NCBI GenBank assembly: GCA_023392205.1
Contig: JAEVZN010000279.1
Span: 1 to 23,112, forward strand
From: Pseudomonadota bacterium
GTDB taxonomy: Bacteria; Pseudomonadota; Alphaproteobacteria; Rhizobiales; Xanthobacteraceae
Direction: 5' to 3'
Length of the DNA stretch: 23,112 nt
The number at the start of each line of letters is the position of its first letter. The first letter of the stretch is position 1. Made by a program: the position numbers and the translations under genes. The notes below the pieces were generated by a model that saw nothing but the letters and a program-made list of their open reading frames with translations, was not told where the DNA came from and did not search any database. Positions 805 to 23,081 of the stretch are shown here, piece after piece.

Positions 805-808
805 GGCG

Positions 809-2618: not shown

Positions 2619-2622
2619 TGCA

Positions 2623-5911: not shown

Positions 5912-5923
5912 TTTAAATTGACA
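5906..5923. promoter_or_regulatory. PpsR/CrtJ-type box TGT-N12-ACA upstream of dxs
   Basis: TGTCATTTTAAATTGACA is a near-perfect palindrome that fits the TGT-N12-ACA consensus of PpsR/CrtJ, the redox- and light-responsive repressor of bch, crt and puc genes in purple bacteria. Symmetry extends two bases further on each side. It overlaps the predicted -35 hexamer of dxs and the stop codon of the upstream cbbY2. The ppsR gene itself is not in the window. A second imperfect inverted repeat (TGTCAATC, 6 nt, GATTGGCA; minus strand) lies just downstream, across the -10. Confidence 0.75.
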
Positions 5924-7463: not shown

Positions 7464-7590
7464 GGCATCACTTGGATGACGTTCGGACCGGCGCAAGACC
7501 GTGCGTCTTCGGGTCGTTTGCAGATTTGGCAATATCCAGCATGCGCCCGCGTCCTGTCCCGGCGGGTAGAATTAGACGCGGCCACTTCCA

Positions 7591-7625
7591 TAAACTCTAT
7601 TAAATAGATATTATGCTTTGCATAA
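7591..7625. promoter_or_regulatory. LysR-type operator candidates between cbbY and cbbR
   Basis: Within the 175-nt divergent region are an AT-rich palindrome CTATTAAATAG (7597-7607) and TTATGCTTTGCATAA (7611-7625), with six-base arms around three bases, which satisfies the LysR T-N11-A rule. TAA-N7-TAA at 7591-7603 also fits the TNA-N7-TNA pattern described for CbbR. A possible -10 TATTAT (7609-7614) for cbbR overlaps, consistent with autoregulation. This is sequence inference only. Confidence 0.5.
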
Positions 7626-7638
7626 GGAATGACTATCG

Positions 7639-8559: not shown

Positions 8560-8566
8560 ACAGCGT

Positions 8567-9457
8567 TTAGTGGGGCCGCGTTGTCAGGAAATCCTCGTAC
8601 AGGCGCATGAATTCGCCGGGCAATTCGAATTGCGGCAGGGCGCCGGTGGACATCGTGTGCGTCGTCCAGTTCGGCAGAGATTTGTACTTATCCAGATGTT
8701 TGTAATCGACGAAATCGCCGCGCACACCATGCGCAACAAAGACCGGCATCTTCAGATCGTCGTAGACACGTGTGATATCCTTGCTGAACAGATAGCCCGA
8801 AACGAAACGGTAAGGCGCATGGCGCGCGCCGGGCTGGTGCGTGGTGATATAGGCGTATTCGAACAGACCTTCGTCGATCTTGTCGCTACCGAAGGTCTTT
8901 TTCAGGAAATACCGGATGCTGATCCGCGACGAGAGCATCCGGAAGAAGCCCTTCGTCCATAATGGATTGCGGAACATCGCATAGAGAACGGCATTACCGC
9001 GGTCGGAGCCGGGCGGTCCGTCATAGGGCGCGCGGCTGTCCATTCCTGTCGGGCTGATCAGACCCACTGTCCTGTAATGCGTGGGCTCCTCGCTGGCCGC
9101 GCGCGCCAGAAATTCCGAACCCAGCGACAGCGCCAGCGCATCGATGGGCGCGTCGCCATGTTCCTTGCGGATCTCGGCTGTTATCGCGTGGACGGCATCG
9201 GTCATCATGCGCGGGTCATAGGGACGATCGGAACGGTCCGAAAATCCGAAACCCGGTAGATCGATCGCATAGACGATACGGCGTGTCACCGCGCGGTCGT
9301 AGACCGGTTTCATTTCATAGGCGGAGCCGGCGGCATTGATGCTGTGGATCAGAAGCAGCGGTGGCCCCTCCCCCTCGCCGCCGCGGTAATAACTGAGCTT
9401 GCCTGCAGGTGAGGATATTTCCACGCGCTGGCCGGCAACGGCCTCCGGCATATCCAT
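8567..9457 (-). CDS. Alpha/beta-hydrolase-fold protein of the bchID operon (not BchO)
   Basis: 296 aa. It starts 17 nt after bchD with a GAGGA ribosome site 7 nt before the ATG. An HSINAAGSAYE oxyanion region, DLPGFGFSDRSDR and a nucleophile elbow ALSLG with Ser111 are visible, as is an acidic site near HGVRGDFVD. Where this fold normally has the catalytic His before the last helix (G-H-x-P-x-x-E), this protein reads GALPQFELP, with no His. It may therefore use another residue or be non-catalytic. It occupies the position where bchO often sits, but the real BchO-like gene is at 809-1705. Function is unknown; the operon suggests a link to bacteriochlorophyll synthesis or photosynthetic membrane lipids. 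Confidence 0.8.
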   Translation of the reverse strand: MDMPEAVAGQRVEISSPAGKLSYYRGGEGEGPPLLLIHSINAAGSAYEMKPVYDRAVTRRIVYAIDLPGFGFSDRSDRPYDPRMMTDAVHAITAEIRKEHGDAPIDALALSLGSEFLARAASEEPTHYRTVGLISPTGMDSRAPYDGPPGSDRGNAVLYAMFRNPLWTKGFFRMLSSRISIRYFLKKTFGSDKIDEGLFEYAYITTHQPGARHAPYRFVSGYLFSKDITRVYDDLKMPVFVAHGVRGDFVDYKHLDKYKSLPNWTTHTMSTGALPQFELPGEFMRLYEDFLTTRPH

Positions 9458-9474
9458 TGAAAAATCCTCGACGA

Positions 9475-11214
9475 TCAGAGGGCCGCGCGCACGGCGTTCG
9501 ATAAGGTTAGCGCATCCGCGCGGGGAAGCGGCAGATATTGCGCGCCCATGCTGTCCGCAAGCCGCCGCGCCGCGGCATGTGGCGAGGGAGATGTGTCGAC
9601 CATCAGACAGGTGAGGCCAAGCGTGCGGATGGCGCGCGCGGCCAACCCGGCATCGGCTTCCGCATTCTCCCGGCCCTGTGTTCCATCGCGCGCGATATTG
9701 GCGCGGCCATCGGTCATCAGCACGACAACCGGCGTCTGCCCCTTGCGGCGCGCCTGATCCGCCAGGTCGCGGGCGGCGTCGAGCGCGGCGGCAAGCGGCG
9801 TGCCGCCACCGCCCGGCAATGCCGCAAGGCTGCGCTTGGCGCGCGGCAGCGACCGCGTCGGCGGCAGCAGCAGTTCCGCGCTCTGGCCGCGAAACGCGAT
9901 CAGCGCGACCTGATCGCGGCGCACATAACAATCCGCCAGCAGCAATTCGACGGCCCCCTTGGCTTCCGCCAGCCGGTGCACCGCAGACGAACCGGAGGCA
10001 TCCACGACAAAGACCGTCACCGTTTCGCTGTGATGGGTGTAATGCGTGATGCGAAAGTCCTCGCGGCGCACGGCGATGCGCCGGACATCGGTTTCGTCAC
10101 CGCCCTGCTGCCTTCTGCGCAACGCCTGCCACGGCGCCGCCGCACGCAAGGTATCGACCACATTCAGCCGCGCACCTGCCGTCAATTCGCCCTGCCGCGA
10201 GCCCAGCGGCCGGCCGCGTTTCGCGCGCATCTTGTTCCCTGCGGTTCCGGTGGCCGCGCGCCGCATGGCCGGCGCCTGACCTGTCCGTATCCGATCGAGC
10301 AAACCCTTCGGGATCGAGGCTTTCGCCGCAGCAAGCACGACATCGGTCAGATCCTGCTCGGTCTTTTGCTGCGCTTCGCCGTCATCGCCCTGCTCGGGCG
10401 GCGGCGGTGTGTCCTCGCTGTCGTCCTGTTGTTCCTCAACTGGGACGACAGTGGCGCGAAAACCATAGACCAGGCGCGCGGCGACGCTCGCATCGTCGGC
10501 CATCACACAGGAGCGGCCGCATAAGGCTGCGTGAATGCGCGCAACCTGCAACGCCATCGCGGGCGCGCGTCCCGATTGCACACCGAGCATCAACGCGCTT
10601 TCGCACAAAGCGCGCAGCATGTCGTCGCCTGCTGTCACGTTGTGAAGCGCATTGCGTGCGGCAGCGATCCGGTAGGGCGCGAACGGCGCATCGAGTGTCG
10701 CGCGATCCGGAAGCAGGACTTGCAAGGCGAGACGCTCCAGGAGAATCGAAGGCGGCCGCTCGTCGGGTTCGAGCCCTTCATCGAGCGCGATCACCGCAAT
10801 GCGGCCGGGATCGCGCTTTGCAAAGCCTTCGCGCTCCACCGCAACCTCGTGCGTATCGAGAACCGCGGCGAGCCGCGCCGCAAGCGACCCCGACATGCGT
10901 TCGGCCGTCGGGGCGACCACGATCCCGCCGTCGCAATCGGCGAGCAATCCGCGCTCGCTGACCGGGCGCCCGCTTGTCAGCGTCGCGCCGAGATCGAGCC
11001 CGCCCAGCAGGCGGCTATCGGGAATGGTCAGCGGCAATCTGCGCACCGGACGATCCGCGCAGGTGATCTTCAGTTGCGCCATCAACGCATCGCGTAGCGG
11101 CCCGCTCCGCGCCCGCAGATGCAAACCGCCAAGCGATGCCGGATCGACTGCAAGGATGCACAAGGCAAGCGCGGCCTCCCGACCCGGCTCGTCGTCGCGG
11201 CCGCGTTCCGTCAT
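9475..11214 (-). CDS. bchD: Magnesium-chelatase subunit D
   Basis: 579 aa. With BchI it forms the ATP-driven AAA+ motor of Mg-chelatase, which with BchH inserts Mg into protoporphyrin IX, the first committed step of bacteriochlorophyll synthesis. The layout is an N-terminal degenerate AAA+-like region, an acidic/proline-rich linker (EEQQDDSEDTPPPPEQGDDGE) and a C-terminal von Willebrand A domain with MIDAS DASGS and a MTDGRAN motif. The ATG at 11214 overlaps the bchI stop by four bases (ATGA). The frame is open to 11535, but that stretch overlaps bchI and is not family-like. The length matches the usual 550-600 aa. Confidence 0.95.
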   Translation of the reverse strand: MTERGRDDEPGREAALALCILAVDPASLGGLHLRARSGPLRDALMAQLKITCADRPVRRLPLTIPDSRLLGGLDLGATLTSGRPVSERGLLADCDGGIVVAPTAERMSGSLAARLAAVLDTHEVAVEREGFAKRDPGRIAVIALDEGLEPDERPPSILLERLALQVLLPDRATLDAPFAPYRIAAARNALHNVTAGDDMLRALCESALMLGVQSGRAPAMALQVARIHAALCGRSCVMADDASVAARLVYGFRATVVPVEEQQDDSEDTPPPPEQGDDGEAQQKTEQDLTDVVLAAAKASIPKGLLDRIRTGQAPAMRRAATGTAGNKMRAKRGRPLGSRQGELTAGARLNVVDTLRAAAPWQALRRRQQGGDETDVRRIAVRREDFRITHYTHHSETVTVFVVDASGSSAVHRLAEAKGAVELLLADCYVRRDQVALIAFRGQSAELLLPPTRSLPRAKRSLAALPGGGGTPLAAALDAARDLADQARRKGQTPVVVLMTDGRANIARDGTQGRENAEADAGLAARAIRTLGLTCLMVDTSPSPHAAARRLADSMGAQYLPLPRADALTLSNAVRAAL

Positions 11215-12236
11215 GGTCCGAGCAATTCGGAGACCGCGCGCTCGATCCGCACACCCGATCCCGCTTCGTCGAGCGGATCGCGCCGCAGGCGATGCCGCAA
11301 TGCAGACGCCGCCATGCTGCGCACATGCGCGTCGGAGACTTCCGCAGCCTTGTCGAGTGCGGCAAGCGCGCGCGCCGCCCGGATCAGCGTCAGTTCGCCG
11401 CGCAAGCCATCGGTGCCGAGACCCATGCAAAGCCTTGCGGCGCTTTCCCGCACCTTGTCCGGCACGATGACCTTCGGCAGCGCAAGCTTCGCCGAGGCCA
11501 GCATGCGCCGCACAGCATCGTCCTTGCGCTTCCACGCCTGCATGAAAGCGGCAGGGTCGCGCTCGAAATCGTCACGGCGGCGCACCACATCCATGCGCGT
11601 GGCGATGTCGGTCGGTGTGCGCACCTCCACCGACAGGCCGAAGCGATCGAGCAATTGCGGACGCAATTCGCCCTCTTCCGGATTGCCGGTACCGATCAAC
11701 ACGAAGCGCGCGGGGTGGCGGATACTCAGTCCTTCGCGTTCGACGACATTCTCACCGGACGCGGCGACGTCGAGCAGCAGATCGACGATATGATCCTCGA
11801 GCAGATTGACTTCGTCGATATAGAGAAAGCCGCGATGCGCCCGCGCCAGCAATCCCGGCTCGAAGGCCTTGATACCCTGGCTGAGCGCCAATTCCAGATC
11901 GGGCGCACCGACGACACGATCCTCGGTCACGCCAAGCGGCAGATCGACCACCGGCACATCGACCAGATGACTTTTCAGATTGCCTTTGCGGTTACGCTCC
12001 TGACATTCTGAGCAGCCGGACCCGTTCGCACCCGGATCGCAGCGATAACGGCATCCCTCGACCGCGCGCATTTTCGGAAGCAAGCCCGCGAGTGCGCGAA
12101 CCGCGGTTGATTTCCCGGTCCCGCGATCGCCGAACACGAGCACCCCGCCGATGGACGGATCGATGGCCGAAATGAGCAGCGCCCGCTTCATCTCGTCCTG
12201 ACCGACAATGGCGGAGAATGGGAAGGCCGCCTTCAT
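11211..12236 (-). CDS. bchI: Magnesium-chelatase ATPase subunit I
   Basis: 341 aa AAA+ ATPase. Walker A is GDRGTGKST (residues 36-44), Walker B is FLYIDEVNLL, the sensor-like region is VLIGTGNPEEGELRPQLLDRFG, and the cysteine-bearing insert (CRYRCDPG...CSECQ) is typical of BchI/ChlI. It powers Mg insertion with BchD and BchH. It is the first gene of bchI-bchD-hydrolase on the minus strand. A PpsR-type box lies about 130 nt upstream. Confidence 0.97.
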   Translation of the reverse strand: MKAAFPFSAIVGQDEMKRALLISAIDPSIGGVLVFGDRGTGKSTAVRALAGLLPKMRAVEGCRYRCDPGANGSGCSECQERNRKGNLKSHLVDVPVVDLPLGVTEDRVVGAPDLELALSQGIKAFEPGLLARAHRGFLYIDEVNLLEDHIVDLLLDVAASGENVVEREGLSIRHPARFVLIGTGNPEEGELRPQLLDRFGLSVEVRTPTDIATRMDVVRRRDDFERDPAAFMQAWKRKDDAVRRMLASAKLALPKVIVPDKVRESAARLCMGLGTDGLRGELTLIRAARALAALDKAAEVSDAHVRSMAASALRHRLRRDPLDEAGSGVRIERAVSELLGP

Positions 12237-13248: not shown

Positions 13249-13361
13249 ACACCGGTCTGCGCCCTAGCGGGCCCTCTCGCCAGTTGCACGTTATTGCGCT
13301 TGCGAATGCGACGCCGTATGCAGAGTCAGGCCCTCCACCGGGGCGCGGTGACGACAAGGCG

Positions 13362-14027
13362 ATGGCTCAGGTCAAAAAGACGAAGGTGCGCGACGCGATC
13401 ATCGCCAATGCCTACCGGTTGTTTCGCGACCAGACCTATCTGCGCACATCCATCGCCGATATCGGACGGGCGGCAGGGATCGCCCCGTCCAACATCTATG
13501 TGTATTTCAACTCGAAATTCGAGATTTTTTACGCTGCCTACGAGCCCTGGCTGAAAGTGCGGCTGGAGCGGCTTGAAGCCGAACTTCTCGCCATTCCCGA
13601 TCCCACGCAGCGGCTGTCGCGGATCCTTCAGGCGGTGTGGATTGAATTGCCGACCGAGGACAACGGTTTTGCCAACAATCTGATGCAGGCCGTGTCGACG
13701 ACCGACAAGGACGAACCCTTTCGCAGCGACCTGTTGTCCCGTTCGGAAAAAATCCTCGCCGGATTGCTCCAGCAGGCGCTGCCGTCCGGCCGCTTGACCG
13801 AGCCGGAATGCGAGCGTCTGGCGCATATCCTGTTGATGGCGTTCGACGGCTTCATCGTTCGCAGCCATGTCGGAGGAACGCGCGCCGATATGCCGGATAT
13901 CGTGGCGATCATGGGCAAGCTGGTCGGGGGAGAGCCGGGCAAGGCATCCAGGAGCAACGATACGGGCGAACGGCCGGACCCCGTCCCCCGCAAGCCGTCC
14001 AAGTCAAAATTGACGCATGTGGATTAA
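13362..14027 (+). CDS. TetR/AcrR-family transcriptional regulator
   Basis: 221 aa. The N-terminal DNA-binding domain has the TetR helix-turn-helix TSIADIGRAAGIAPSNIYVYFNSKFEIF (about residues 29-56). The C-terminal ligand domain is unassigned and ends in a basic tail (PRKPSKSKL). I start at the ATG at 13362, with an AAGG upstream and the usual KTKVRDAIIANAYRLF entry helix. The open frame continues upstream but overlaps the 85-aa gene. It lies 91 nt before the dioxygenase gene on the same strand, so it is the likely local repressor of the catabolic operon, responding to the substrate or an intermediate. That role is inferred from position. Confidence 0.88.
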   Translation: MAQVKKTKVRDAIIANAYRLFRDQTYLRTSIADIGRAAGIAPSNIYVYFNSKFEIFYAAYEPWLKVRLERLEAELLAIPDPTQRLSRILQAVWIELPTEDNGFANNLMQAVSTTDKDEPFRSDLLSRSEKILAGLLQQALPSGRLTEPECERLAHILLMAFDGFIVRSHVGGTRADMPDIVAIMGKLVGGEPGKASRSNDTGERPDPVPRKPSKSKLTHVD

Positions 14028-14043
14028 TGAACGGCATTCGCTA

Positions 14044-14072
14044 TTGACGCGGCCGCAACGGCGTTGGACTAT
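14044..14072 (+). promoter_or_regulatory. Putative promoter and operator of the NicX-like gene
   Basis: TTGACG (14044-14049) and GACTAT (14067-14072) are 17 nt apart; the -10 is weak. The spacer holds a compact palindrome CAACG-G-CGTTG (14056-14066), a possible site for the adjacent TetR protein. Low confidence, since the motif is short and is not seen again upstream of the tetR gene. Confidence 0.3.
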
Positions 14073-14118
14073 TTCCAGATAACATCCTGCCTGCCACTTC
14101 CGCCTGCTGGAGACGGAC

Positions 14119-15198
14119 ATGATCGCGTCAGCCATTCGATCCACCGAAATCAATCCCGGCAAACTCGGCTTCCTGTTCAAGAAGCAATTCGAGATGTCCA
14201 AGGTGAAAGCGGGCGAGACCATCGCCCTCATCAGCGATCTCGCGACGCGCACGGAATATATCGAGGCGGCCTTTGCCGCCGCCGACGAACTGGGCGCCGA
14301 TGTCTATGACATGCGGGTCAACTCGATCCCATCCTGGACCAAGGTCGGCGTCCCGACCATCGGCAAATGCAAGGGCACCCTTGAAGCCGTGAAGGCCGCC
14401 GACCTGATCGTGATCTTTCATGTGCCCCTGTTCACCAAGTGGTTGAAAGAGGTCATGGACGGCGGCACCCGCGTGCTGATGATCATCGATGCGCCGGACG
14501 ATCTCGAACAGCTCATGTCGCCCCCCGGCCTGAAAGAGGCCCTTAAATATGCCGAGCAGAAATATCAGAAGACGCGGGAAGTCCGCGTCACCTCCGAGGC
14601 CGGCACCGACTTCACCTATTCCTGCGGCGAATATCCGGTCATGACCCAATGGGGCTACGCCGACGAGCCCGGACATTTCGACCATTGGGGCGGCGGACAT
14701 ATCCACACCTTCCCGAATGAAGGTTCGGCACGCGGCAAGGTCGTGATCCAGCCCGGCGACATCATCATTCTCCCCTATTGCCGCTATGTGCAGGATCCCG
14801 TGCATCTCGACATCAAGGACGGGTTCATCACCAAGATCGAAGGCGGTCTCGACGCCAAGCTGATGCGCGACTGGCTGGACGACGGCAAGGCGGACGAGAA
14901 CGACCGCGACCCCTATGCGCTCTCGCATCTCGGCTGGGGCCTCAACCCGCAGGCGCGCTGGTATTCGCTCGCCATGAACGGCGACGATCCCGAACGGCAC
15001 CGCGCCGGCGCACGCGTGTTTGCCGGCAATTTCCTGTTCTCCACCGGCCCGAATTCGCAGGGCGGCGGCAAGCGCACGACGCGCGGCCATTACGACGTAC
15101 CGATGCGCGATTGCACGGTGATGCTCGATAACGAGGTCATCATCGACAAGGGGCGCGTCGTGGATTCCAAGATGCGGGTCGCGCGCATTAGCGTCTGA
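14119..15198 (+). CDS. NicX-like 2,5-dihydroxypyridine 5,6-dioxygenase
   Basis: 359 aa. It resembles NicX of Pseudomonas putida, a non-heme Fe(II) enzyme of nicotinate degradation that opens 2,5-dihydroxypyridine to N-formylmaleamate. Shared blocks as I recall them are AGTDF, YGYADEPG-x-x-DHW, FPNE/WPNE, ALSHLGWGL-x-P-x-A, GNFLFSTGPN and GGKR. The three residues that align with the NicX Fe ligands His265, His318 and Asp320 are here His270, His324 and Asp326. GGAG lies 6 nt upstream of the ATG. Automated annotation often labels this fold as aminopeptidase (M29), but the ligand pattern favours the dioxygenase. The true substrate could be a substituted hydroxypyridine. It is the first structural gene after the TetR gene and is followed by a stem-loop and a formamidase-like hydrolase. 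Confidence 0.82.
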   Translation: MIASAIRSTEINPGKLGFLFKKQFEMSKVKAGETIALISDLATRTEYIEAAFAAADELGADVYDMRVNSIPSWTKVGVPTIGKCKGTLEAVKAADLIVIFHVPLFTKWLKEVMDGGTRVLMIIDAPDDLEQLMSPPGLKEALKYAEQKYQKTREVRVTSEAGTDFTYSCGEYPVMTQWGYADEPGHFDHWGGGHIHTFPNEGSARGKVVIQPGDIIILPYCRYVQDPVHLDIKDGFITKIEGGLDAKLMRDWLDDGKADENDRDPYALSHLGWGLNPQARWYSLAMNGDDPERHRAGARVFAGNFLFSTGPNSQGGGKRTTRGHYDVPMRDCTVMLDNEVIIDKGRVVDSKMRVARISV

Positions 15199-15207
15199 TC
15201 CGGCACT

Positions 15208-15236
15208 GCATCGTCCGGCAACGCGCCGGATGATGC
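15208..15236 (+). terminator. Stem-loop between the NicX-like gene and the hydrolase gene
   Basis: A 12-bp stem (15208-15219 with 15225-15236; one G-T wobble) with a 5-nt loop begins 9 nt after the dioxygenase stop. There is no U-tract, so it may be a weak terminator, an attenuator or a 3'-end stabiliser. It argues against the ATG at 15230 as start of the next gene, because that codon is inside the stem. Confidence 0.5.
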
Positions 15237-15310
15237 CACCGCAAGAACAAAAGGACTTCTGCGCAAAGCGACAAGCGGCCAAAAGGCCGTCAGGGCCACG
15301 AGAGGGTTTC

Positions 15311-16138
15311 GTGCGAGTTGACGAGTATCCGCCGCAGGAGCCGTTCACGGCGATCGGCGCCCGCTATCATGAGGAGGTCTTGCGCCGAGGCGCCGACGTC
15401 CGGGGCATCGATTCTCATTATGGCTACGATCCGTATCAGTCGCTGACAATCGTGCCCGCAAAGAAGCCCAATGGCGATGTGCTCGTCGCGCTTCATGGCG
15501 GCGGCTGGACGAACGGCTACAAGGAATGGATGCTGTTCATGGCGCCGGCCGTGACGGCACAGGGCATCACCTTCGTCAGCGCCGGTTACCGGCTTGCTCC
15601 GCAGCACGTTCATCCGGTGCAATACGACGATGTCTGCGACGCGATCGCATCGTTGCATACCACGATTGCGGATCATGGCGGCGATCCGCGGCGCATTTTT
15701 ATCACCGGACATTCCGCAGGCGGGCATCTCGCGGCTCTGGTGGCGTTGCGCAGGGACTGGCGGGCATCGCGCGGATTGCCGCACGATGTGATCCGCGGCG
15801 CGTTACCGATCTCGGGGACTTACGTTTTCGGCCCGCAATCGGGCCTGTCTATGCGGCCGCGATTTCTCGGACCGGAAAATGGGGGCGCCGAAGGCAATGC
15901 CTCGCCCATGACGCATGTGGCGCAAGGCGCGCCACCCTTCTTCGTGAGCTATGGCACAGACGATTTTCCGCATTTGCGCCGTCAGGCAGAGGACTTCGTT
16001 GCCGCGATGCGCGCGCAGGGCAATGACGTGACGACACTCGAACTGGCCGGCTGCGATCATCTCGGTGCGAGTTACGCCAGCGGCGAGCCGCAGGGCGAGT
16101 GGATCGGCAAGGCCGCTGCCTGGATGCGGGAGCGCTGA
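15311..16138 (+). CDS. Arylformamidase-like alpha/beta-hydrolase, candidate N-formyl-amide deformylase
   Basis: 275 aa from a GTG at 15311 with AGAGGG 4 nt upstream. The open frame reaches an ATG at 15230, but that lies in a hairpin and adds 27 residues unlike the family. An oxyanion motif HGGGW (His62), nucleophile elbow GHSAGGHLA (Ser135), acid YGTDD (Asp217 or Asp218) and CDH (His250) complete a catalytic triad. HGG-x-W plus GHSAG-x-HLA is the pattern of kynurenine formamidase and related esterases. After a NicX-like enzyme, an N-formylmaleamate deformylase is needed, and this protein fits that chemistry, although it is not the NicD sequence I know. Its stop directly abuts the ATPase start (TGA|ATG). 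An esterase role remains possible. Confidence 0.78.
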   Translation: MRVDEYPPQEPFTAIGARYHEEVLRRGADVRGIDSHYGYDPYQSLTIVPAKKPNGDVLVALHGGGWTNGYKEWMLFMAPAVTAQGITFVSAGYRLAPQHVHPVQYDDVCDAIASLHTTIADHGGDPRRIFITGHSAGGHLAALVALRRDWRASRGLPHDVIRGALPISGTYVFGPQSGLSMRPRFLGPENGGAEGNASPMTHVAQGAPPFFVSYGTDDFPHLRRQAEDFVAAMRAQGNDVTTLELAGCDHLGASYASGEPQGEWIGKAAAWMRER

Positions 16139-17647
16139 ATGGCAGATCAGGCGCCCTCCGCTGAGCGACGCGGCAATGCAGTCACCGTCACCGGATTGAC
16201 GAAGGCCTTCGGGGCCACGCTCGCGCTCGACAATGTGGATTTCTCGCTGGAATTTGGCGAGACCCATGCGCTGGTCGGTGAGAACGGTGCCGGCAAATCG
16301 ACGCTGATCCGCATTCTCGGCGGCGTACACCGGGCCGATAGCGGCAGCATCGCCATTGCCGGCGAGCAACGCAGTTTTTCAAGCCCGCGCGATGCCATCA
16401 TGTCGGGCATCGTCACCATCCCGCAGGAATTGCGGATGGTGCCCGCGCTGTCGATTGCGGAAAATATCGCGCTGGGCAGCCTGCCGATGCGCCGGATCCT
16501 CGGCGTGCTGCCGGCCATCGACCGCAAGCGTATGCGCGAGGACGCACGGCATTACCTCGATCAGCTCAATTTCACGGCCGATCTGGATCGCCCGGTCTAT
16601 ACGCTGAGCTTTGCCGAACGGCAGCTTGTCGCCATCGCCAAGGCGTTGCGGCTGAAATGCCGTATCTTCATCCTCGACGAACCGACCGCGGCGCTCGAGG
16701 ACCGCGAGATCGAACGGCTGTTCGCCGTCATCACGCGCATGAAGGAACAGGGCACGGCGATCATCTATATTTCCCACAGGCTCGACGAGATTGTTACGCT
16801 GGCCGACCGCTGCACGGTGCTGCGCGACGGCAAACTGGTCGCGACACGCTCGCGCGACACGTTCACTACGGCCGACCTGATCGAGGACATGACGGGCAAG
16901 ATGGCGCAGGAGGTCACGACCGACCACCTGACGCCGGGCGAGCCGCTCCTTGAAGAACTGGATGAACGCGCCGACCGGATGATGGTGCGCGAGAAGGAAG
17001 CCGTCGGCCTCGCCGGCCTGCTCGGCAGCGGCAGCGACCAGATCGTGCGGCGGCTGTTCGGTCTTGGCAATGAGCGCCCGAAAATACGGCTGGCAGGCGG
17101 ACGCACCACGCATTTTGCGCGCCCTGCGGACGCGATCCGCGCCGATGTCGGTTTCGTTCCGGGCGAGCGGGCGCTGGGTCTCGTGATGAACCTTTCGGTG
17201 CGCGACAACATCCTGCTGCCCTCGCTGACCCGCGACAATTCTCCGTTCTGGGTCAGCCGCCGGGCCGGCGACGTGGTGGTGCGCAAGTTGATGGAGCTTC
17301 TGGATATCCGCCCCCGCCGTCCCGAATTGCGGGTGGGGTCTCTGTCGGGCGGCAATCAGCAGAAGGTCATCATTGCCAAATGGCTGGCGCGGCGCGTGGC
17401 GACATTGCTGCTCGACGAGCCGACGCATGGCATCGACATTGCAGCGAAAATGCATGTGCATGCGCTGATACGACAATTCACCAGAGACGGCGGCGGCGTC
17501 GTCGTCAGTTCGAGCGATCTCGCCGCACTGGCGCGCATCTGCGACACGGTCCTTTCGGTTCGAAACAGGCGGATCACCAGCCGCATCGACCGCAAGGACG
17601 GGATGGACGAAAGCCGGCTGCGTGCATCGATCGGGGGAACCCACTGA
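16139..17647 (+). CDS. ABC importer ATPase, ribose type (tandem nucleotide-binding domains)
   Basis: 502 aa with two ATPase domains in one chain, as in RbsA/MglA/XylG. Domain 1 has Walker A GENGAGKST (47-55), a degenerate signature LSFAERQ and Walker B FILDEPTAAL (about 177-186). Domain 2 has a degenerate P-loop (LLGSGSDQIV), the canonical signature LSGGNQQ (402-408) and LLLDEPTHGID. This intact/degenerate pattern is normal for the family. It energises uptake with the permease and binding protein that follow. The start abuts the hydrolase stop and the permease starts 2 nt after its stop, so the set is one transcription unit. Similarity to sugar importers does not fix the substrate; the context points to an aromatic heterocycle. 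Confidence 0.93.
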   Translation: MADQAPSAERRGNAVTVTGLTKAFGATLALDNVDFSLEFGETHALVGENGAGKSTLIRILGGVHRADSGSIAIAGEQRSFSSPRDAIMSGIVTIPQELRMVPALSIAENIALGSLPMRRILGVLPAIDRKRMREDARHYLDQLNFTADLDRPVYTLSFAERQLVAIAKALRLKCRIFILDEPTAALEDREIERLFAVITRMKEQGTAIIYISHRLDEIVTLADRCTVLRDGKLVATRSRDTFTTADLIEDMTGKMAQEVTTDHLTPGEPLLEELDERADRMMVREKEAVGLAGLLGSGSDQIVRRLFGLGNERPKIRLAGGRTTHFARPADAIRADVGFVPGERALGLVMNLSVRDNILLPSLTRDNSPFWVSRRAGDVVVRKLMELLDIRPRRPELRVGSLSGGNQQKVIIAKWLARRVATLLLDEPTHGIDIAAKMHVHALIRQFTRDGGGVVVSSSDLAALARICDTVLSVRNRRITSRIDRKDGMDESRLRASIGGTH

Positions 17648-17649
17648 CC

Positions 17650-18597
17650 ATGACTTCGAGCGATACCATTTCGACGCGCCTTCTCGGCCAGATTCCGCTG
17701 ATCACGCTGATCGCATTATGCGTTTTCACCACTTTGCTCACCGACCGCTTCCTGTCGCCGATCAACCTGAACAATATTCTCGTTCAGTCCTCGATCATGG
17801 CGGTCATCGCGATGGGCATGACCTTCGTGATTATCGGCGGCGGCTTTGATCTGTCAGTTGGATCGACGGCGGCCTTGTCCGCCTGCGTCTCGGCCATGGT
17901 GATGCTGGAAGCCGGGATCGCCATGGGCGTGCTGGCAGGCGTCGTGGTCGGTGCCGGTGTCGGACTGATCAACGGCATCATCATCGCCTATCTGAAGGTC
18001 AATCCTTTCATCACTACGCTCGGCACCATGGTGCTGTTCCGCGGCGTGGTCTTCCTGATCACAGGCGGCGCGCCGGTCGAGGGCGAATACGGCCTGCCGT
18101 CGAGCTTCGTTGCGTTCGGGTCGACGCGCATCTTCGGGCTGCATGCGCTGGTCTGGGTGCCGATCATCTTGCTGATCGTGCTGTCCTGGGTGATGCATGC
18201 CACGCCCTATGGGCGGCAGATCTACGCCACTGGCGGCGGACGCGAGGCCGCCTTCCTGTCCGGCGTTCCGGTCGCACGCATCACGGCCTCGACCTATGTA
18301 GTCTGCGGCGCCATGGCGGGGATCGCCGGTGTCATGCTGGCGGCGCGCCTGCAATCGGGCCAGCCGACCGCGGGCGAGTTCTACGAACTCACTGCCATCG
18401 CCGCAGTGGTGCTGGGCGGCGCGGCTTTGCATGGCGGCGAAGGCACGCTCTACAAGAGCGTCATCGGCGTATTCATCATGATCATTCTCGGCAACAGCCT
18501 CAATCTGCTGAATGTCGATTCCTATTGGCAGCGCGTTGCCATCGGCGCTGTCATCATTGCCGCTGCGGCGGCAGATTCCATGCGGTCCAAGCGTTGA
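17650..18597 (+). CDS. ABC importer permease, RbsC type
   Basis: 315 aa, hydrophobic throughout, with about 8-10 predicted membrane helices. The family hallmark GMTFVIIGGGFDLSVGS lies near residue 55-72, and the cytoplasmic coupling stretch GGGREAAFLSGVPV follows in the second half. ATG at 17650; an upstream extension of the frame overlaps the ATPase gene and is not used. It forms the inner-membrane channel, probably as a dimer, with the tandem ATPase upstream and the binding protein downstream. Confidence 0.93.
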   Translation: MTSSDTISTRLLGQIPLITLIALCVFTTLLTDRFLSPINLNNILVQSSIMAVIAMGMTFVIIGGGFDLSVGSTAALSACVSAMVMLEAGIAMGVLAGVVVGAGVGLINGIIIAYLKVNPFITTLGTMVLFRGVVFLITGGAPVEGEYGLPSSFVAFGSTRIFGLHALVWVPIILLIVLSWVMHATPYGRQIYATGGGREAAFLSGVPVARITASTYVVCGAMAGIAGVMLAARLQSGQPTAGEFYELTAIAAVVLGGAALHGGEGTLYKSVIGVFIMIILGNSLNLLNVDSYWQRVAIGAVIIAAAAADSMRSKR

Positions 18598-18610
18598 ACG
18601 GAGAGGGATA

Positions 18611-19546
18611 ATGAAAAAGCTCAGTGTGCTGTTAGCGTCTGCTGTTGCCATTGCCGGCCTGGTCCTGGCTCCGGCCGAAACGGTCCGCGCGCAGGACAAG
18701 ACCACCATCGGCGTGGCCTTCCCGCAGGATGACAACCCCTTCTATATCGCCATGCTGCGCGGCGTGCGGGAACGCGCCAAGGAACTCGGCTGGGAAGTGG
18801 CCGCGGTGTCCTCCAACGAAGACAAGCTGCGTCAGATCAACGGCGTGCAGGATCTGGTCGCGCGCGGTGTCAAGGGCATCCTCATTTCGCCGATCGATGC
18901 CACCGGCGTGAATGCCGCCTATGACGCCGCGGCCGCCGGCAAGGTGCCGATCGTATCGATCGCGCGCGGTTCGACCTCGCCCAACCAGACCCTGCATGTC
19001 GCGATGGACGAAAAGCAGATCGGCCGCGACATCGCCGAATGGACCGCCAAGCAGATCGGCGGCAAGGGCAAGGTCGCCATGCTGCTCGGACCGTCGGGCG
19101 CGCCAACCTTCCGCAACCTCGCCGAAGGCTATACCGAAGTGATGGACAAATATCCCGACATCACCGTCGCCTTCCGCACCGACGGTCCGCTCACCCGCGA
19201 GCGTGGCCTCAAGAACAGCGAGGACGCACTGGTCGCGCATCCGGATCTCGCCGCCATCTATACTGCCAATGACGACGTCGCTCTCGGCGCGACCCAGGCG
19301 GTGCTGGCTGCCAACCGCAAGGGCAAGACGATTGTGACCGGCATGAATGGCGTGCCGCCGGCCCTGCGCGCGCTGAAGGACGGCAATCTCGCCATGACCA
19401 TCGAGCTCAACCCCGTCCTGTGGGGCCGGCTCGGTGTGGATGTGCTCGCCCAATATCTGAAGGGCGACAAGGTGGAGCCGCGTGTCTTCATCGAGCATGT
19501 CATCATCGACAGCAAGAACATCGACCAGAAGATGCCGAAGAGCTGA
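18611..19546 (+). CDS. ABC importer substrate-binding protein, RbsB-like
   Basis: 311 aa, periplasmic. An N-terminal Sec signal peptide (MKKLSVLLAS, hydrophobic core, then TVRA) is likely cut after Ala27. The mature part begins TTIGVAFPQDDNPFY and has the two-lobed type I binding-protein fold; ISPIDATGV and TANDDVALG are family landmarks. GGAGAGGG precedes the ATG at 18611. The long open frame from 18512 overlaps the permease and is spurious. Ligand residues cannot be read from sequence. It is followed by a strong stem-loop that could raise its mRNA level relative to downstream genes. Confidence 0.94.
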   Translation: MKKLSVLLASAVAIAGLVLAPAETVRAQDKTTIGVAFPQDDNPFYIAMLRGVRERAKELGWEVAAVSSNEDKLRQINGVQDLVARGVKGILISPIDATGVNAAYDAAAAGKVPIVSIARGSTSPNQTLHVAMDEKQIGRDIAEWTAKQIGGKGKVAMLLGPSGAPTFRNLAEGYTEVMDKYPDITVAFRTDGPLTRERGLKNSEDALVAHPDLAAIYTANDDVALGATQAVLAANRKGKTIVTGMNGVPPALRALKDGNLAMTIELNPVLWGRLGVDVLAQYLKGDKVEPRVFIEHVIIDSKNIDQKMPKS

Positions 19547-19558
19547 TAGACGCGAAAG

Positions 19559-19586
19559 CCGTGGCGGGCCGGTATTCCCGCCACGG
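19559..19586 (+). terminator. Perfect 10-bp stem-loop after the binding-protein gene
   Basis: CCGTGGCGGG (19559-19568) pairs perfectly with CCCGCCACGG (19577-19586) around an 8-nt loop, starting 13 nt after the stop codon. No U-run follows. Such hairpins after binding-protein genes commonly protect the upstream mRNA or cause partial termination, so the cupin and molybdenum-enzyme genes would be made at lower levels. Confidence 0.55.
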
Positions 19587-19628
19587 TCCAACCGATCACG
19601 ACAAGACTGGCAATACGGAGATCGTCCC

Positions 19629-20660
19629 ATGGCGCATGCAGCCGCCGAAATCGGCGCCGGCACACCTTACGTGCGTGAGGTTGAACAGGCGCATCTGCAT
19701 CCGCTCTGGGACCGCTACAAGCGCATCACCCCGATGCAGCCGAAACCGGCGGACACGCCGTTTCACTGGCCGTGGCGCATCACGTCGGAGCTATTGCACC
19801 GCGCCGTCGCGGAAGTGCCGATCGAGGAGATCGAACGGCGCGCCCTGATCATGTCGCATCCGGCCTTCGGCGACGAGACCGCGACCACCGGCACCCTGCT
19901 CGGCGCCTTCACCGTGCTCGATCCAGGCGAGCAGGCCCGCCCGCATCGCCATACCGGTGCGGCGATCCGCTTCGCAACCCAGGCCGATGGCGCCGCCACC
20001 ATCGTCAATGGACGCTGGTGCGAGATGAAATCCGGCGACCTGATCCTGACGCCGCCAATGGCCTGGCACGGACATATCAATCGCAGCCAGAACCGCATCA
20101 TCTGGTTCGATGCGGCGAACATGCCGCTGCTGCGCGGCCTGAATGCGCATTTCTTCGAGCCCGGCGATCCCAAGGATGAGGATTTCTGGAAGGTCGACGA
20201 AGGCGACGAACGGCGCTGGCGCGCGGCGGGACTGGCCGTCGCCAATGCCCGTACCGGCGAGCCAAGTTCGCCGAAATATCATTTTCCGGGCGATGTCACG
20301 CGCCGGATGCTGGGTGAGATGCCATCCGCACCCGACGGTTCGAAGCTCCTACGATATATCAATCCGGAGACCGGCGGCGCGGTCATGTCCACGCTCGACT
20401 GTTATGCCATGCGGCTGAAGGACGGCATGGAGACACGGCCCAAGCGCGGCGCCTATAACATGATCTGCCTCGTGGTGTCGGGACAGGGCCGCTCGCAGAT
20501 CGGCGACCGGACCTTCGAATGGTCGCAGCACGACGTGTTCACGATCCCCTCCTGGTCATGGGCCACGCACCGCGCATTGTCGGGCGATGCCGATCTGTTC
20601 ATCGTTTCGGACAAGGTGGTGTTCGAGAAGCTCGACGTCCTGCGCGAAGAAGTCCAGTAG
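19629..20660 (+). CDS. Gentisate 1,2-dioxygenase-like bicupin
   Basis: 343 aa, matching the length of gentisate dioxygenases, Fe(II) enzymes that cleave gentisate between C1 and C2. The N-terminal cupin has PHRHTGAAIRF with His106 and His108 and TPPMAWHGH with His147, the expected Fe ligands. The C-terminal cupin is degenerate: RPKRGAY stands where His residues are usually found, which is common since Fe is bound in the first domain. GGAG lies 8 nt before the ATG at 19629; the frame runs upstream to 19482 over the binding-protein gene. Usual gentisate partners (maleylpyruvate isomerase, fumarylpyruvate hydrolase) are not here, so the substrate may be another ortho- or para-hydroxy aromatic acid or an aza-analogue. 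The stop is 6 nt before the Mo-enzyme gene. Confidence 0.85.
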   Translation: MAHAAAEIGAGTPYVREVEQAHLHPLWDRYKRITPMQPKPADTPFHWPWRITSELLHRAVAEVPIEEIERRALIMSHPAFGDETATTGTLLGAFTVLDPGEQARPHRHTGAAIRFATQADGAATIVNGRWCEMKSGDLILTPPMAWHGHINRSQNRIIWFDAANMPLLRGLNAHFFEPGDPKDEDFWKVDEGDERRWRAAGLAVANARTGEPSSPKYHFPGDVTRRMLGEMPSAPDGSKLLRYINPETGGAVMSTLDCYAMRLKDGMETRPKRGAYNMICLVVSGQGRSQIGDRTFEWSQHDVFTIPSWSWATHRALSGDADLFIVSDKVVFEKLDVLREEVQ

Positions 20661-20666
20661 CGCCCG

Positions 20667-23081
20667 ATGGGCGACGATCATACCGGCAACATTGATCTCG
20701 TCGATCCGGCGCAAGCCATCGGCGCGCCGCTGCGCCGCGTGGAGGATCGCCGCTTCCTGACCGGCGAAGGACGCTATGTCGGCGACATCGACCTGCCCGG
20801 CATGCTGCATGCGGTGTTCGTGCGCGCGGTGCATGCGCATGCGAAATTGCGCGGTATCGATACCAAGGCTGCGAAAGAAAGCCCCGGTGTGGTCGCGATC
20901 CTGACCGGCGAGGACATGCGCGCCGACAATGTCGGTCCGATGCGGGCGATGTGGGCGATCAAAGGCCCCGGCGGCACGCCGATGGCGGAGCCTCCCCGCT
21001 ATGCGCTGGCGCGTGACGCGGTTCGCCATGTCGGCGAGCCTGTGGCGCTGGTCGTGGGCGAAACGCTGCCGGCCGCACTCGATGCCGCCGAAAAGATCGA
21101 GATCGACTACGATCCCCTGCCCGCTGAAACGTCTGCACCCGCCGCGCTTGCGCCCGGCGCGCAGCGCATCCATGAGGACGCGCCCGATAATGTCTGCTTC
21201 CGCTGGGCGCGTGGCGATGCCCCCGCGGTGGACGCGGCCTTCGACACGGCCGCGCATATCGTCAGCATCGATCTGGTCAACCAGCGCATCGGCGGCGCGG
21301 CCATCGAGCCGCGGGCCTTGATTGCCGTGCCGCCGAAAGGCGGCAGCAAGCTCACGCTCTATTCGTCGACGCAGGTGCCGCATCACATCCGCAGGCTCGT
21401 GACCGAGCAACTCGGCATGAGTGAATCGCGCATGCGCGTCATCGCGCCGGATGTCGGGGGCGGCTTCGGTTACAAGGGCAAACTCTATCCGGAAGAATCG
21501 GTGCTGGCCTGGGCGGCCATGCGCGTCGGCAAGCCATTGCGCTGGACCGCCACCCGCTCCGAAAGCTTCCTCTCCGACTATCAGGCGCGCGATCACACCA
21601 CGCACGCCGAAATGGCGCTCGACCGCGAGGGGCATTTCCTGGCCTTGCGGGTGAAAACCATCGCCAATGTCGGCGCCTATGTTTCAACCTTTGGCGCCGC
21701 GATCCCGAGCGCGATCTACACCGCGTTGCTGGCCGGCGTGTATCGCACCCCGGCCATCAGTGTGGACTGTACCGGCGTGTTCACGAACACCGTGCCGACC
21801 GATGCCTATCGCGGCGCCGGGCGGCCGGAGGCCTGTTACGTGCTGGAAAGGCTGGCCGACGAGGCCGCCGCCGCCTTGAAGCTCGACGGCGCGGAGATCC
21901 GCCGCCGCAATCTCATTCCGGCAATCGCCATGCCCTATCAGACGCCGATCGGGCCAAGCTACGACAGCGGCGATTTTCCGCGCCTGTTCGCGCGCGCATT
22001 GTCGATTGCCGATCATGACGGTTTTGCAGCGCGGCGGCGTGTTTCGGAAAAGCGCGGAAGGCAACGCGGCCTCGGCATTGCCTGCTTTGTCGAATCCTCC
22101 GGCGTCGCCCCGTCGCGCTTTGCCGGCATGCTCGGCGCGCGCGCGGGCTTCTACGAATCCGCCTCGCTCACCATGGAGCCGGACGGATCGCTGCGGGCGC
22201 GGCTTGGCACCCACAATCACGGTCAGGGCCACGAGACCAGCATGGCGCAGATCCTGTCCGCGCGGCTCGGCTTGCCGGTCGGCGGCATCGAAATCGCCGA
22301 GGGCGACACCGAGCTTGTGCCGTATGGCACCGGCACCTTCGGGTCGCGCAGCATCGCCGTCGGCGGTTCGGCGCTGGCGCTGGCCGCCGACAAGATCATC
22401 GAGAAGGGCCGGACGATTGCCGCGCATCTGCTGGAAGCGGATGCCGCCGATATCGCCTTCGCCGATGGACGCTACAGCGTCACCGGTACGGATCGGGCCG
22501 TCACGCTGATCGAGGTGGCGCGCGCCGCCTATATTCCGCACCATTATCCGCTGGAGACGCTGGAGCCGGGCTTGCAGGATATTGCGGTCTACGATCCCAA
22601 GGCCTTCGCCTTCAGCAACGGCGTGCATGTCTGCGAGATCGAGGTCGATCCGGAGACCGGGATCGTTCGGCTCGACCGCTATGCCGCTGTCGACGATGTC
22701 GGCACAGTGATCAATCCGATGATTGCAACAGGCCAGGTGCATGGCGGCGTCGCGCAGGGCTTCGGGCAGGCGGTGCTGGAGCACATCGCCTATGAGCCGG
22801 AATCCGGACAGGCGTTGACCGGGTCGTTCATGGATTATGGAATCGCACGGGCGCGCGACCTGCCGCATTTCCTGTCCGAATTCGACCAGAGCCAGCCCTG
22901 CACCCACAATCCGCTGGGGGCCAAGGGTTGCGGAGAAGCCGGCACCATCGCCGCCCCGGCCGCAATTACCGGCGCGCTTCTGGACGCACTGCGCCCGCTT
23001 GGCGTGACGGATTTCACGATGCCGGCCACCCCGTTCCGGGTCTGGGATGCAATTCGCGCCGCCAATTCCGAGCGCCGCTGA
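20667..23081 (+). CDS. Molybdopterin-binding large subunit, xanthine-dehydrogenase/CoxL family (form II type)
   Basis: 804 aa. Large catalytic subunit of a molybdenum hydroxylase, which adds water-derived oxygen to an electron-poor ring carbon. The N-terminus GAPLRRVEDRRFLTGEGRYV is typical. The Mo-cofactor motif GGGFGYKG is at 264-271. The active-site loop AYRGAGR is at 380-386, the form II signature, unlike the CO-oxidising form I loop AYxCSFR. The C-terminal KGCGEAG carries the catalytic Glu757. The enzyme should need a 2Fe-2S subunit and usually a FAD subunit, neither of which is in the window. No clear Shine-Dalgarno is seen, so translation is probably coupled to the cupin gene 6 nt upstream. 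Suggested job: hydroxylation of the pyridine-type substrate. Confidence 0.9.
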   Translation: MGDDHTGNIDLVDPAQAIGAPLRRVEDRRFLTGEGRYVGDIDLPGMLHAVFVRAVHAHAKLRGIDTKAAKESPGVVAILTGEDMRADNVGPMRAMWAIKGPGGTPMAEPPRYALARDAVRHVGEPVALVVGETLPAALDAAEKIEIDYDPLPAETSAPAALAPGAQRIHEDAPDNVCFRWARGDAPAVDAAFDTAAHIVSIDLVNQRIGGAAIEPRALIAVPPKGGSKLTLYSSTQVPHHIRRLVTEQLGMSESRMRVIAPDVGGGFGYKGKLYPEESVLAWAAMRVGKPLRWTATRSESFLSDYQARDHTTHAEMALDREGHFLALRVKTIANVGAYVSTFGAAIPSAIYTALLAGVYRTPAISVDCTGVFTNTVPTDAYRGAGRPEACYVLERLADEAAAALKLDGAEIRRRNLIPAIAMPYQTPIGPSYDSGDFPRLFARALSIADHDGFAARRRVSEKRGRQRGLGIACFVESSGVAPSRFAGMLGARAGFYESASLTMEPDGSLRARLGTHNHGQGHETSMAQILSARLGLPVGGIEIAEGDTELVPYGTGTFGSRSIAVGGSALALAADKIIEKGRTIAAHLLEADAADIAFADGRYSVTGTDRAVTLIEVARAAYIPHHYPLETLEPGLQDIAVYDPKAFAFSNGVHVCEIEVDPETGIVRLDRYAAVDDVGTVINPMIATGQVHGGVAQGFGQAVLEHIAYEPESGQALTGSFMDYGIARARDLPHFLSEFDQSQPCTHNPLGAKGCGEAGTIAAPAAITGALLDALRPLGVTDFTMPATPFRVWDAIRAANSERR

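Follow-up and report, generated by a model that had tools for sequence, protein, structure and literature searches.

A recurrent operon joining a NicX-type dioxygenase, a bicupin and a CUT2-type importer suggests a distinct route for the breakdown of N-heteroaromatic compounds

Results

Eight genes on one strand

The window analysed here is the whole stretch of 23,112 nt that makes up positions 1 to 23,112 of contig JAEVZN010000279.1 (assembly GCA_023392205.1; Xanthobacteraceae). Eight genes lie between 13362 and 23081, all on the + strand, in the order TetR, NicX-like dioxygenase, alpha/beta hydrolase, RbsA, RbsC, RbsB, bicupin and CoxL. The gaps between them are, in order, 91, 31, 0, 2, 13, 82 and 6 bases, and the window ends 31 bases past CoxL. 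We found the genes, positions, strand and tight spacing (gaps of 0-91 bases) just as the first-pass annotation had them, and profile searches recovered the families of both the ABC importer and the second ring-cleavage-type enzyme, the bicupin, which it had placed in the cluster. The first gene (13362..14027, ATG at 13362, 221 aa, TetR_N 39.8 bits) encodes a TetR-family regulator, likely the repressor of the operon. No inverted repeat of at least 7 bases with arms within 20 bases was found in 13990-14125. A single 9-base palindrome lies upstream of TetR.

For comparison we used 68 genome loci carrying relatives of the NicX-type protein that are 61-83% identical to it; together with the window these make 69 places.

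A NicX fold with a changed substrate contact

The second gene (14119..15198) encodes a NicX-type Fe(II) ring-cleavage dioxygenase. NicX was the only match in a sequence search of the PDB (7cn3, 233.6 bits), and Pfam gave no family up to E 10. The structure model has 7cn3 as its first Foldseek hit (TM 0.80, 34% identity), against TM 0.50-0.53 and 12-13% identity for M29 enzymes. The M29 peptidase identity, which the first-pass annotation had named among the findings that would overturn its proposal, was therefore dropped. Residues H270, S308, H324 and D326 correspond to the iron ligands His265, Ser302, His318 and Asp320 published for NicX (PMC7910607, in excerpt), and the four are kept in the window and in 73/73 locus copies. 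By sequence, fold and iron ligands the protein thus belongs with NicX.

The residues of functional contact give another picture. H189 is kept, but E177 is Gln and H105 is Phe. In NicX, according to the same excerpted study, Glu177 contacts N1 and O1 of 2,5-dihydroxypyridine and E177A lowers activity to 2.7%, whereas H105F keeps activity (PMC7910607). Since F105 is also seen in Rhizobium and Azospirillum, in NicX proteins from annotated nic clusters, we dropped this position as a mark of specificity and take E177Q as the telling change. Gln177 is found in the best 120 of 2598 homologues at E 0.001, a set that probably takes in other clades, and in 70/73 locus copies; it also occurs outside the clade, in two NicX relatives (Thioclava, Rhodococcus). 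The identity of the substrate is therefore not transferable from NicX. At the position of Cys76 one alignment has C and another V.

In the phylogeny the protein falls within a clade of 71 rows (support 100/99), apart from the NicX of annotated nic clusters. We found no characterised member of this Q177 clade in the open-licence literature. Its genes also occur with other ring hydroxylases: CoxL, CoxM and CoxS together in 24 loci, a Rieske oxygenase in L047, and an FAD monooxygenase immediately upstream in L021 and L026.

A bicupin that departs from gentisate dioxygenases

The bicupin (19629..20660) resembles gentisate and salicylate 1,2-dioxygenases and scores 235 bits to the gentisate model TIGR02272, below its cut-off of 442. 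The iron His triad, R83, R127, H162, W172 and D174, which it has in common with these enzymes, are kept in 17/17 copies. With its three-His iron site and carboxylate-contact residues it is a member of the bicupin ring-cleavage dioxygenases. Yet it differs from the gentisate and salicylate enzymes by Q108T, L176A, G106A and Ile or Leu at 104, again in 17/17, and Gln108 and Leu176 are described as conserved among all gentisate dioxygenases (excerpt of PMC11264262). Together with the low score on the curated model, this sets it outside gentisate 1,2-dioxygenase proper. The best 120 of 1630 homologues at E 1e-20, a set that probably includes true gentisate dioxygenases, keep the His triad, R83, R127 and H162 and carry T108 and A176. 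No characterised member of the group was found in the open-licence literature. The flanking DNA examined around two remoter bicupins (42-43%; L082, L088) holds no NicX.

Where JGI gives names in the homologue lists, these are '2,5-dihydroxypyridine 5,6-dioxygenase' for the NicX-type protein and 'gentisate 1,2-dioxygenase' for the bicupin. The residue evidence makes both doubtful as to substrate.

Hydrolase and importer

The third gene (15230..16138; Abhydrolase_3, 90.4 bits) encodes an HSL/BD-FAE-like alpha/beta hydrolase of the Pfam families Abhydrolase_3/BD-FAE, a candidate deformylase or esterase. Residues S162, D245 and H277 and the HGGGW motif are invariant in all 20 copies aligned, out of 26 in total. 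The protein had been called formamidase-like; the hydrolase part of that call holds, while a formamidase identity was not confirmed and the fold is esterase-like (model pLDDT 89.5, with esterases and lipases as nearest structures). Bicupin and hydrolase occur together in only 2/69 places, the window and L037. They mostly avoid each other, and a single linear pathway using both is therefore not general.

The importer genes encode an RbsA-like ABC ATPase (16139..17647; NCBIfam AraG 388 bits, cut-off 689), an RbsC-like permease (17650..18597; BPD_transp_2, 158 bits) and an RbsB-like binding protein (18611..19546; Peripla_BP_4, 187 bits). All three score under the cut-off of every NCBIfam family listed for them (25 of 192 in the case of RbsA). 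In family and gene set the system is like the RbsABC ribose importer (CUT2). The binding pocket is not. Set against the ribose contacts of E. coli RBP (residue list from an excerpt of PMC2630998), RbsB shows D89A, R141L, F164L, D215N, Q235L and F16Y in 11/11 copies. Six of ten contacts are thus altered, and N13, F15, R90 and N190 are kept. With a pocket so changed the protein probably falls outside the ribose binders, and we judge ribose import unlikely.

A CoxL subunit mostly seen apart from its usual partners

The last gene (20667..23081) encodes a CoxL-like molybdopterin-binding subunit. NCBIfam, Pfam (MoCoBD_1/2) and the motif AYRGAGR agree with its earlier call as a molybdenum hydroxylase; we take the motif to mark the 'form II' type. 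The protein sits in a clade of 14 rows with support 100/100. It scores 434 bits to quinoline 2-oxidoreductase, with CO dehydrogenases higher at 484-551 bits.

CoxSLM hydroxylases belong to the same sequence family, and the closest plasmid-borne relatives looked at (51-55%; Azospirillum, Microvirga) sit in CoxS-L-M clusters. The operon-type L subunit, in contrast, stands without CoxS or CoxM in the flanking DNA examined for 12/13 relatives with the AYRGAGR motif. Counting the window and a truncated locus (L006), neither partner was found in 13/14 places of the clade; L013 has a CoxM, and the search covered only 0.6 kb after CoxL at L068 and 31 bases in the window. A Pseudohalocynthiibacter relative (50%) has CoxS and CoxM types 1-2 kb off on the other strand. 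FAD_binding_5 matches number 2-16 in each of 12/12 carrier genomes.

Recurrence of the neighbourhood

Among the 68 related loci, a bicupin is found in 16/68, RbsB in 10/68 and TetR in 22/68. These counts include the bicupins of L012, L015, L030 and L055, found by direct search, and RbsA was left out of all neighbourhood statistics. Bicupin and RbsB were found in 0/12 control loci, which belong to other NicX clades and have shorter flanks (5-6 kb vs up to 10 kb). Across 297 genomes of one order the base rates are low: a bicupin at E 1e-80 in 1/297, which is the seed itself, and a NicX at E 1e-120 in 3/297, seed included.

The genes also occur in company. Of the 14 places with an AYRGAGR CoxL, 12 also have the bicupin (Fisher p 5e-8, on rows related by descent), and bicupin is present in 9/11 places with RbsB. 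Five of the 17 bicupins (L002, L014, L018, L036, L037) have no AYRGAGR CoxL nearby. The association of Rbs genes and bicupin occurs in three supported NicX clades, with a branch of support 100/100 separating the window's clade from the other two. RbsC is 74-82% identical where NicX is 65-66%, and 60-62% identical where NicX is 72-73%. Because transporter and NicX identities disagree in this way, the operon genes were probably brought, or kept, together on more than one occasion. The conservation of the neighbourhood, which the first-pass annotation had proposed to check by comparing gene neighbourhoods, thus extends to separate NicX lineages. Three Q177-clade loci come from named strains rather than bins, and these three are without bicupin: Bradyrhizobium sp. 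dw_411 and Ramlibacter aurantiacus AW1 have NicX with the hydrolase and Rbs genes, and Roseomonas sp. MO-31 has the arrangement with CoxM and CoxS.

Comparison with nic and pic clusters

NicC, NicE and NicF gave no match in the window at E 1e-5, as first noted, and NicE gave none in the window or in any of the 68 loci. NicF has three weak matches (31-57 bits; L003, L051, L052), all outside the NicX operon, and the weak matches of NicD (23-62 bits) lie elsewhere; the 23-bit one, in L027, comes right behind the Rbs genes. NicD, NicE and NicF do not accompany NicX here as they do in nic and pic clusters.

The nic cluster (NicC, NicX, NicD, NicE, NicF, NicAB), which degrades nicotinate via 2,5-dihydroxypyridine, shares with the operon the NicX fold, its iron ligands and a molybdenum hydroxylase. 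But its NicC, NicD, NicE and NicF are without homologue among the eight genes, its NicX has E177 where the operon has Q177, and the operon has in addition a CUT2-type importer and a bicupin. The claim that this gene content is unlike that of nic clusters is thus upheld. The NicB-type proteins of three control loci score only 42-50 bits against the window CoxL.

PicA is a molybdenum hydroxylase. The pic cluster of Alcaligenes faecalis JQ135, as excerpted from PMC10142695, starts with the dehydrogenase PicA and has PicD at the 2,5-dihydroxypyridine dioxygenase step, both resembling the operon, whereas the lower part of that pathway, with four conserved enzymes among which are maleamate amidase and maleate isomerase, was not found in it. 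Riboflavin catabolism, which in the excerpt of PMC12746152 combines a cupin with a xanthine-oxidase-type enzyme, was rejected since the P450, the amidases and the Rieske enzyme of that pathway do not fit the operon. The open-licence literature gave nothing decisive on picolinate or dipicolinate as substrate, and searches of it turned up no operon of such composition.

Discussion

We suggest, with a probability of roughly 0.58, that this is an inducible operon whose products import an N-heteroaromatic compound and open it oxidatively by a non-nic route. The ring would probably be of the pyridine type and carboxylated. We infer the substrate, the reactions and their order from gene order, families, conservation, iron ligands and residue changes. 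The CUT2-type importer, whose pocket probably no longer fits ribose, would take up the compound. CoxL would hydroxylate the ring beside the nitrogen, its FeS and FAD partners being supplied by genes elsewhere. The NicX-type dioxygenase would then open the hydroxylated ring with O2, and the alpha/beta hydrolase might take off an N-formyl or similar group. The bicupin may open an ortho-hydroxy-carboxylate ring, either of an earlier carboxylated intermediate or of a second ring. TetR would sense the inducer. The first-pass annotation had proposed import and opening of a hydroxypyridine-type ring. Its catabolic side gains from the conserved neighbourhood and the NicX fold, but hydroxypyridine itself is a candidate only, with the NicX contact to N1 and O1 of 2,5-dihydroxypyridine changed in this clade. 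The importer could also carry something else, which we counted against the main reading.

A bolder version is that the bicupin itself opens a carboxylated hydroxypyridine (3,6-dihydroxypicolinate or another aza-gentisate or aza-salicylate), beside a Q177 NicX acting on a ring other than 2,5-dihydroxypyridine, both fed by a CoxL with electron-transfer partners in trans. We hold this only tentatively and find it rather doubtful. If true, this would be a cupin that cleaves a pyridine ring, and bacteria would have a parallel second way to open N-heteroaromatic acids.

Other readings account for part of these data. The bicupin might be the main ring cleaver of a carbocyclic aromatic acid pathway of the salicylate or gentisate kind, with the NicX-like protein acting on a hydroxybenzoate or quinol. 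The retained iron and carboxylate residues of the gentisate and salicylate enzymes fit this, as do a CoA ligase in L014 and the NicX-bicupin pairs adjoining an FAD/FMN protein in L014 (Pfam) and in L018 and L036 (same cluster), of a type known from aryl-CoA hydroxylases. We think it unlikely, given the loss in 17/17 bicupins of Gln108 and Leu176, the two residues reported for all gentisate dioxygenases (PMC11264262, in excerpt). We give poor odds to an ordinary lower pathway of the nicotinate or picolinate type that runs via 2,5-dihydroxypyridine and has its genes for maleamate amidase and maleate isomerase elsewhere. Such a pathway would agree with a fold and iron ligands equal to those of NicX and with the Phe105 of annotated nic clusters, a change that leaves NicX active (PMC7910607, in excerpt); Gln177 could perhaps still pair with a pyridone. 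Among 12 carrier genomes examined, those of L027 and L034 encode NicE homologues (65-77%) and several encode NicF-like proteins (41-57%). But 5/12, of completeness not given, lack any match to NicE at E 0.001, NicE is matched in 0/68 loci, the NicX clade is separate, the best 120 of 2598 homologues carry Gln177, and E177A leaves NicX with 2.7% activity (same excerpt).

Two unrelated ring-cleavage-type dioxygenases lie close together in 17/69 places, which would suit a bicyclic, quinoline-like N-heteroaromatic whose rings are opened one by NicX and the other by the bicupin. The CoxL score to quinoline 2-oxidoreductase (434 bits) points the same way, though the 484-551 bits of CO dehydrogenases exceed it. 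Against this, none of the enzymes was recognised as one acting on a bicyclic intermediate, and NicX is without bicupin in the flanking DNA examined of 52/69 places; we consider this reading very improbable. That a sugar importer merely neighbours unrelated oxidative genes by chance would be consistent with the partly different histories of transporter and enzymes, but hardly credible in view of the recurrence in separate lineages, the low base rates and the altered sugar pocket.

The reading we favour, oxidative opening of an imported N-heteroaromatic compound by a non-nic route, makes the conserved operon a concrete and testable way into a new pathway for nitrogen-ring compounds. The NicX-type and bicupin groups are large, and the doubtful substrate names may reach many of their homologues.

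Organization of the proposed operon

The first-pass annotation had proposed a tightly spaced gene set on one strand, and eight + strand genes indeed fill 13362-23081 in the order TetR, NicX-like dioxygenase, alpha/beta hydrolase, RbsA, RbsC, RbsB (a ribose-type importer), bicupin (a gentisate/salicylate-dioxygenase-like protein) and CoxL (large subunit of a molybdenum hydroxylase). Successive intergenic gaps measure 91, 31, 0, 2, 13, 82 and 6 bases, and CoxL ends 31 bases before the window does. A 9-base palindrome upstream of TetR (13266-13277) might be an operator or a product of chance.

Bacteriochlorophyll and Calvin-cycle genes lie upstream of the operon (1-12236), mainly on the - strand. 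This region holds a crtI family gene truncated by the start of the window, bchO-like, phosphoribulokinase, class 1 fructose-bisphosphatase, dxs, HAD protein, bchD and bchI genes, and a + strand CbbR-like LysR gene scoring under its cut-off. The host is probably phototrophic, or of phototrophic descent. A second alpha/beta hydrolase (8567-9931, - strand) was called as an ORF overlapping bchD; its domain begins at residue 190 and its true start is thus probably later. The BchO match (809-1705) is separate from it.

Conservation of the neighbourhood

Conservation in other genomes, on which the proposal of an operon depended, was borne out by recurrent layouts around NicX relatives at 68 loci. These relatives, 61-83% identical to the window protein, came from one scan of a species-genome collection with two peptide patterns; one spans the H189 stretch, whose conservation among the loci is thus partly built in, and residue 177 lies outside both. 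Layouts were derived from neighbour clustering and direct searches, and many of the 69 places (window and loci) are on short contigs.

The Rbs type, with NicX, RbsA-C-B, bicupin and CoxL, is found in the window, L046, L049, L050, L051, L055, L060 and L068. L002 combines the Rbs and bicupin genes with aconitase-family and PrpF genes instead of CoxL; these come after bicupin (15719-19534 of that locus), where CoxL would be, and hint at a possible tricarboxylate-like downstream product. L024 and L027 carry NicX, hydrolase and Rbs genes, with neither bicupin nor CoxL in the flanks. A second layout has bicupin, CoxL and NicX in that order (L012, L015, L030), and a Peripla_BP_6 gene comes next in L012 and L015; in L009 NicX is oriented divergently from bicupin and CoxL. 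A third, complete in L008, L034 and L038, comprises NicX, CoxG, CoxM, CoxS, CoxL, hydrolase and a Liv-type importer, and a fourth NicX, CoxM, CoxS and CoxL, in bins labelled Gammaproteobacteria (L019, L021, L025, L026, L029). NicX accompanies a Rieske oxygenase in L047, and L037 and L043 have the same two gene clusters. Defluviicoccus loci (L059, L061, L062, L063, L065) have NicX-clade genes near Liv-type importer genes, and no CoxL or hydrolase match was found in the flanks examined. In L014, L018, L036, L056 and L057 the NicX-clade gene adjoins a two-domain FAD/FMN oxidoreductase, assigned by Pfam in L014 and by shared cluster in the others, of a type known from aryl-CoA hydroxylases.

Among the 69 places, bicupin occurs in 17, CoxL with the motif AYRGAGR in 14, other CoxL in 24, hydrolase in 26, RbsB in 11 and TetR in 23. 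Bicupin accompanies AYRGAGR CoxL in 12 of 14 places, the exceptions being L006, where the contig begins within CoxL, and L013, whose CoxL is >8 kb distant and next to a CoxM; no such CoxL accompanies five of the 17 bicupins (L002, L014, L018, L036, L037). The Fisher p of this association (5e-8) overstates independence because the rows are related by descent. With the other CoxL type, bicupin is present in 0/24 places and hydrolase in 17/24; bicupin and hydrolase co-occur only in the window and L037.

Twelve plasmid loci carrying other NicX-family genes, with flanks of 5-6 kb, served as controls. At E 1e-10 none had a bicupin, such a hydrolase, RbsB or RbsC; CoxL was distantly matched in three (42-50 bits), and in three a different ABC ATPase matched RbsA (79-105 bits). 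Across 297 genomes from one order, seed included, bicupin at E 1e-80 was confined to the seed itself (two copies, 61% and 42%), and NicX at E 1e-120 was found in three, counting the seed. The examined DNA around the 42% copy, or around a 43% Paraburkholderia relative, contained no NicX.

In L046, L049, L050, L051 and L060, RbsC shares 74-82% and NicX 65-66% identity with the window protein; in L024 and L027 the values are 60-62% and 72-73%. To judge from these sequences, the parts of the operon have probably been brought together or exchanged on more than one occasion, and this would suggest that they are linked by function and not simply by descent.

A distinct clade of NicX-type enzymes

The window protein matches NicX (PDB 7cn3) with 233.6 bits. 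Structural comparison of its model placed 7cn3 at the top (TM 0.80), with M29 aminopeptidases lower (0.50-0.53); the model has a mean pLDDT of 75 and drops below 50 close to the active site, at residues 103-105, 185-191 and 312-316. The iron ligands reported for NicX (PMC7910607) are conserved in 73/73 locus copies. According to the same study, Glu177 touches substrate N1 and O1, and its alanine form fell to 2.7% activity. This position is Gln in the window, in 70/73 locus copies and in the 120 best homologues, the three remaining copies being a distant second NicX-family member in L014, L018 and L036. That paralog, with Val at 177, lies on the - strand (6463-7509 in L014, where genes for cytochrome c and a CoA ligase are nearby). 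Among 13 reference proteins (NicX and 12 plasmid proteins), ten have Glu177, including the Pseudomonas, Pantoea, Azospirillum and Rhizobium proteins encoded in annotated nic clusters; the others have Gln (Thioclava, Rhodococcus) or Ser (Halocatena). His105 does not discriminate, since Phe occurs there both in the window enzyme and in several Glu177 proteins. In a maximum-likelihood tree, with long outgroup branches flagged, the window protein falls in a 71-row clade (support 100/99), and all annotated nic-cluster copies fall in a separate 11-row clade (100/95). L044 and L048 carry tandem NicX-family genes, the extra copies branching at the clade base; the main L044 copy has Gln where His189 stands.

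Putative functions of the other components

Compared with salicylate/gentisate dioxygenase, all 17 bicupins retain the iron His triad, R83, R127, H162, W172 and D174, but carry T108, A106, A176 and, at position 104, I or L; T108, A106 and A176 are shared by the 120 best of 1630 homologues. Gln108 and Leu176 are among the residues conserved in all gentisate dioxygenases, according to PMC11264262. Since contact residues are kept and these two replaced, the ligand is likely an ortho-hydroxy carboxylate, and gentisate itself a doubtful substrate.

Relative to the ten ribose-contact residues listed for the E. coli ribose-binding protein (PMC2630998), operon RbsB retains N13, F15, R90 and N190 in 11/11 copies but has F16Y, D89A, R141L, F164L, D215N and Q235L in 11/11, making ribose an unlikely ligand. 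In the hydrolase, Ser162, Asp245, His277 and HGGGW show no variation among 20 aligned copies out of 26, and the model of this protein (pLDDT 89.5) resembles esterases and lipases; by analogy with NicD it is a plausible candidate deformylase.

Two CoxL families adjoin NicX. One is encoded with CoxM and CoxS (medium and small subunits), such proteins occurring in 24/24 loci, although some members served as queries. The AYRGAGR group (14 rows, 100/100) has one in a single place (L013, a CoxM); in most of this group the sequence extends about 2-3 kb past CoxL, in L068 0.6 kb. In three plasmid relatives (50-55%), genes of the CoxS and CoxM types are adjacent or lie at a distance of 1-2 kb. CoxM-type FAD domains gave 2-16 matches in each of the 12 carrier genomes tested, so that the partners might be encoded in trans.

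A nic pathway or another route?

Some carriers might instead run an ordinary nic-type pathway with some genes in trans. We searched (E 1e-5) with plasmid-encoded queries, namely NicC, NicD, NicE and NicF of annotated clusters plus related proteins. NicE (maleate isomerase) had no match in the window or the 68 loci, and NicF (maleamate amidase) three weak ones, outside the NicX operons (L003, L051, L052). A gene for a NicC-like FAD monooxygenase immediately precedes NicX in L021 and L026, and is found some 5-8 kb from it in L012, L015, L024, L029, L030 and L060; the FAD/FMN proteins adjoining NicX in L014, L018, L036, L056 and L057 reach 28-35 bits against NicC. The possibility of genes in trans comes from the carrier genomes, where NicF-like proteins were matched in 12/12, several at 41-57%, and strong NicE homologues (65-77%) in two genomes (L027 and L034); NicE was unmatched at E 0.001 in five of the 12.

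The open-licence literature yielded no paper uniting the key components of this operon, nor was it named in the titles or abstract openings found on nicotinate, nicotinamide, picolinate, hydroxypyridine, nicotine or riboflavin. We favour the view that the operon encodes an inducible pathway for an N-heteroaromatic acid, all of whose reactions are conjectural: the acid would be imported, the molybdenum enzyme would hydroxylate it, the NicX-type dioxygenase would open a ring, and the bicupin would open that of an ortho-hydroxy-carboxylate.
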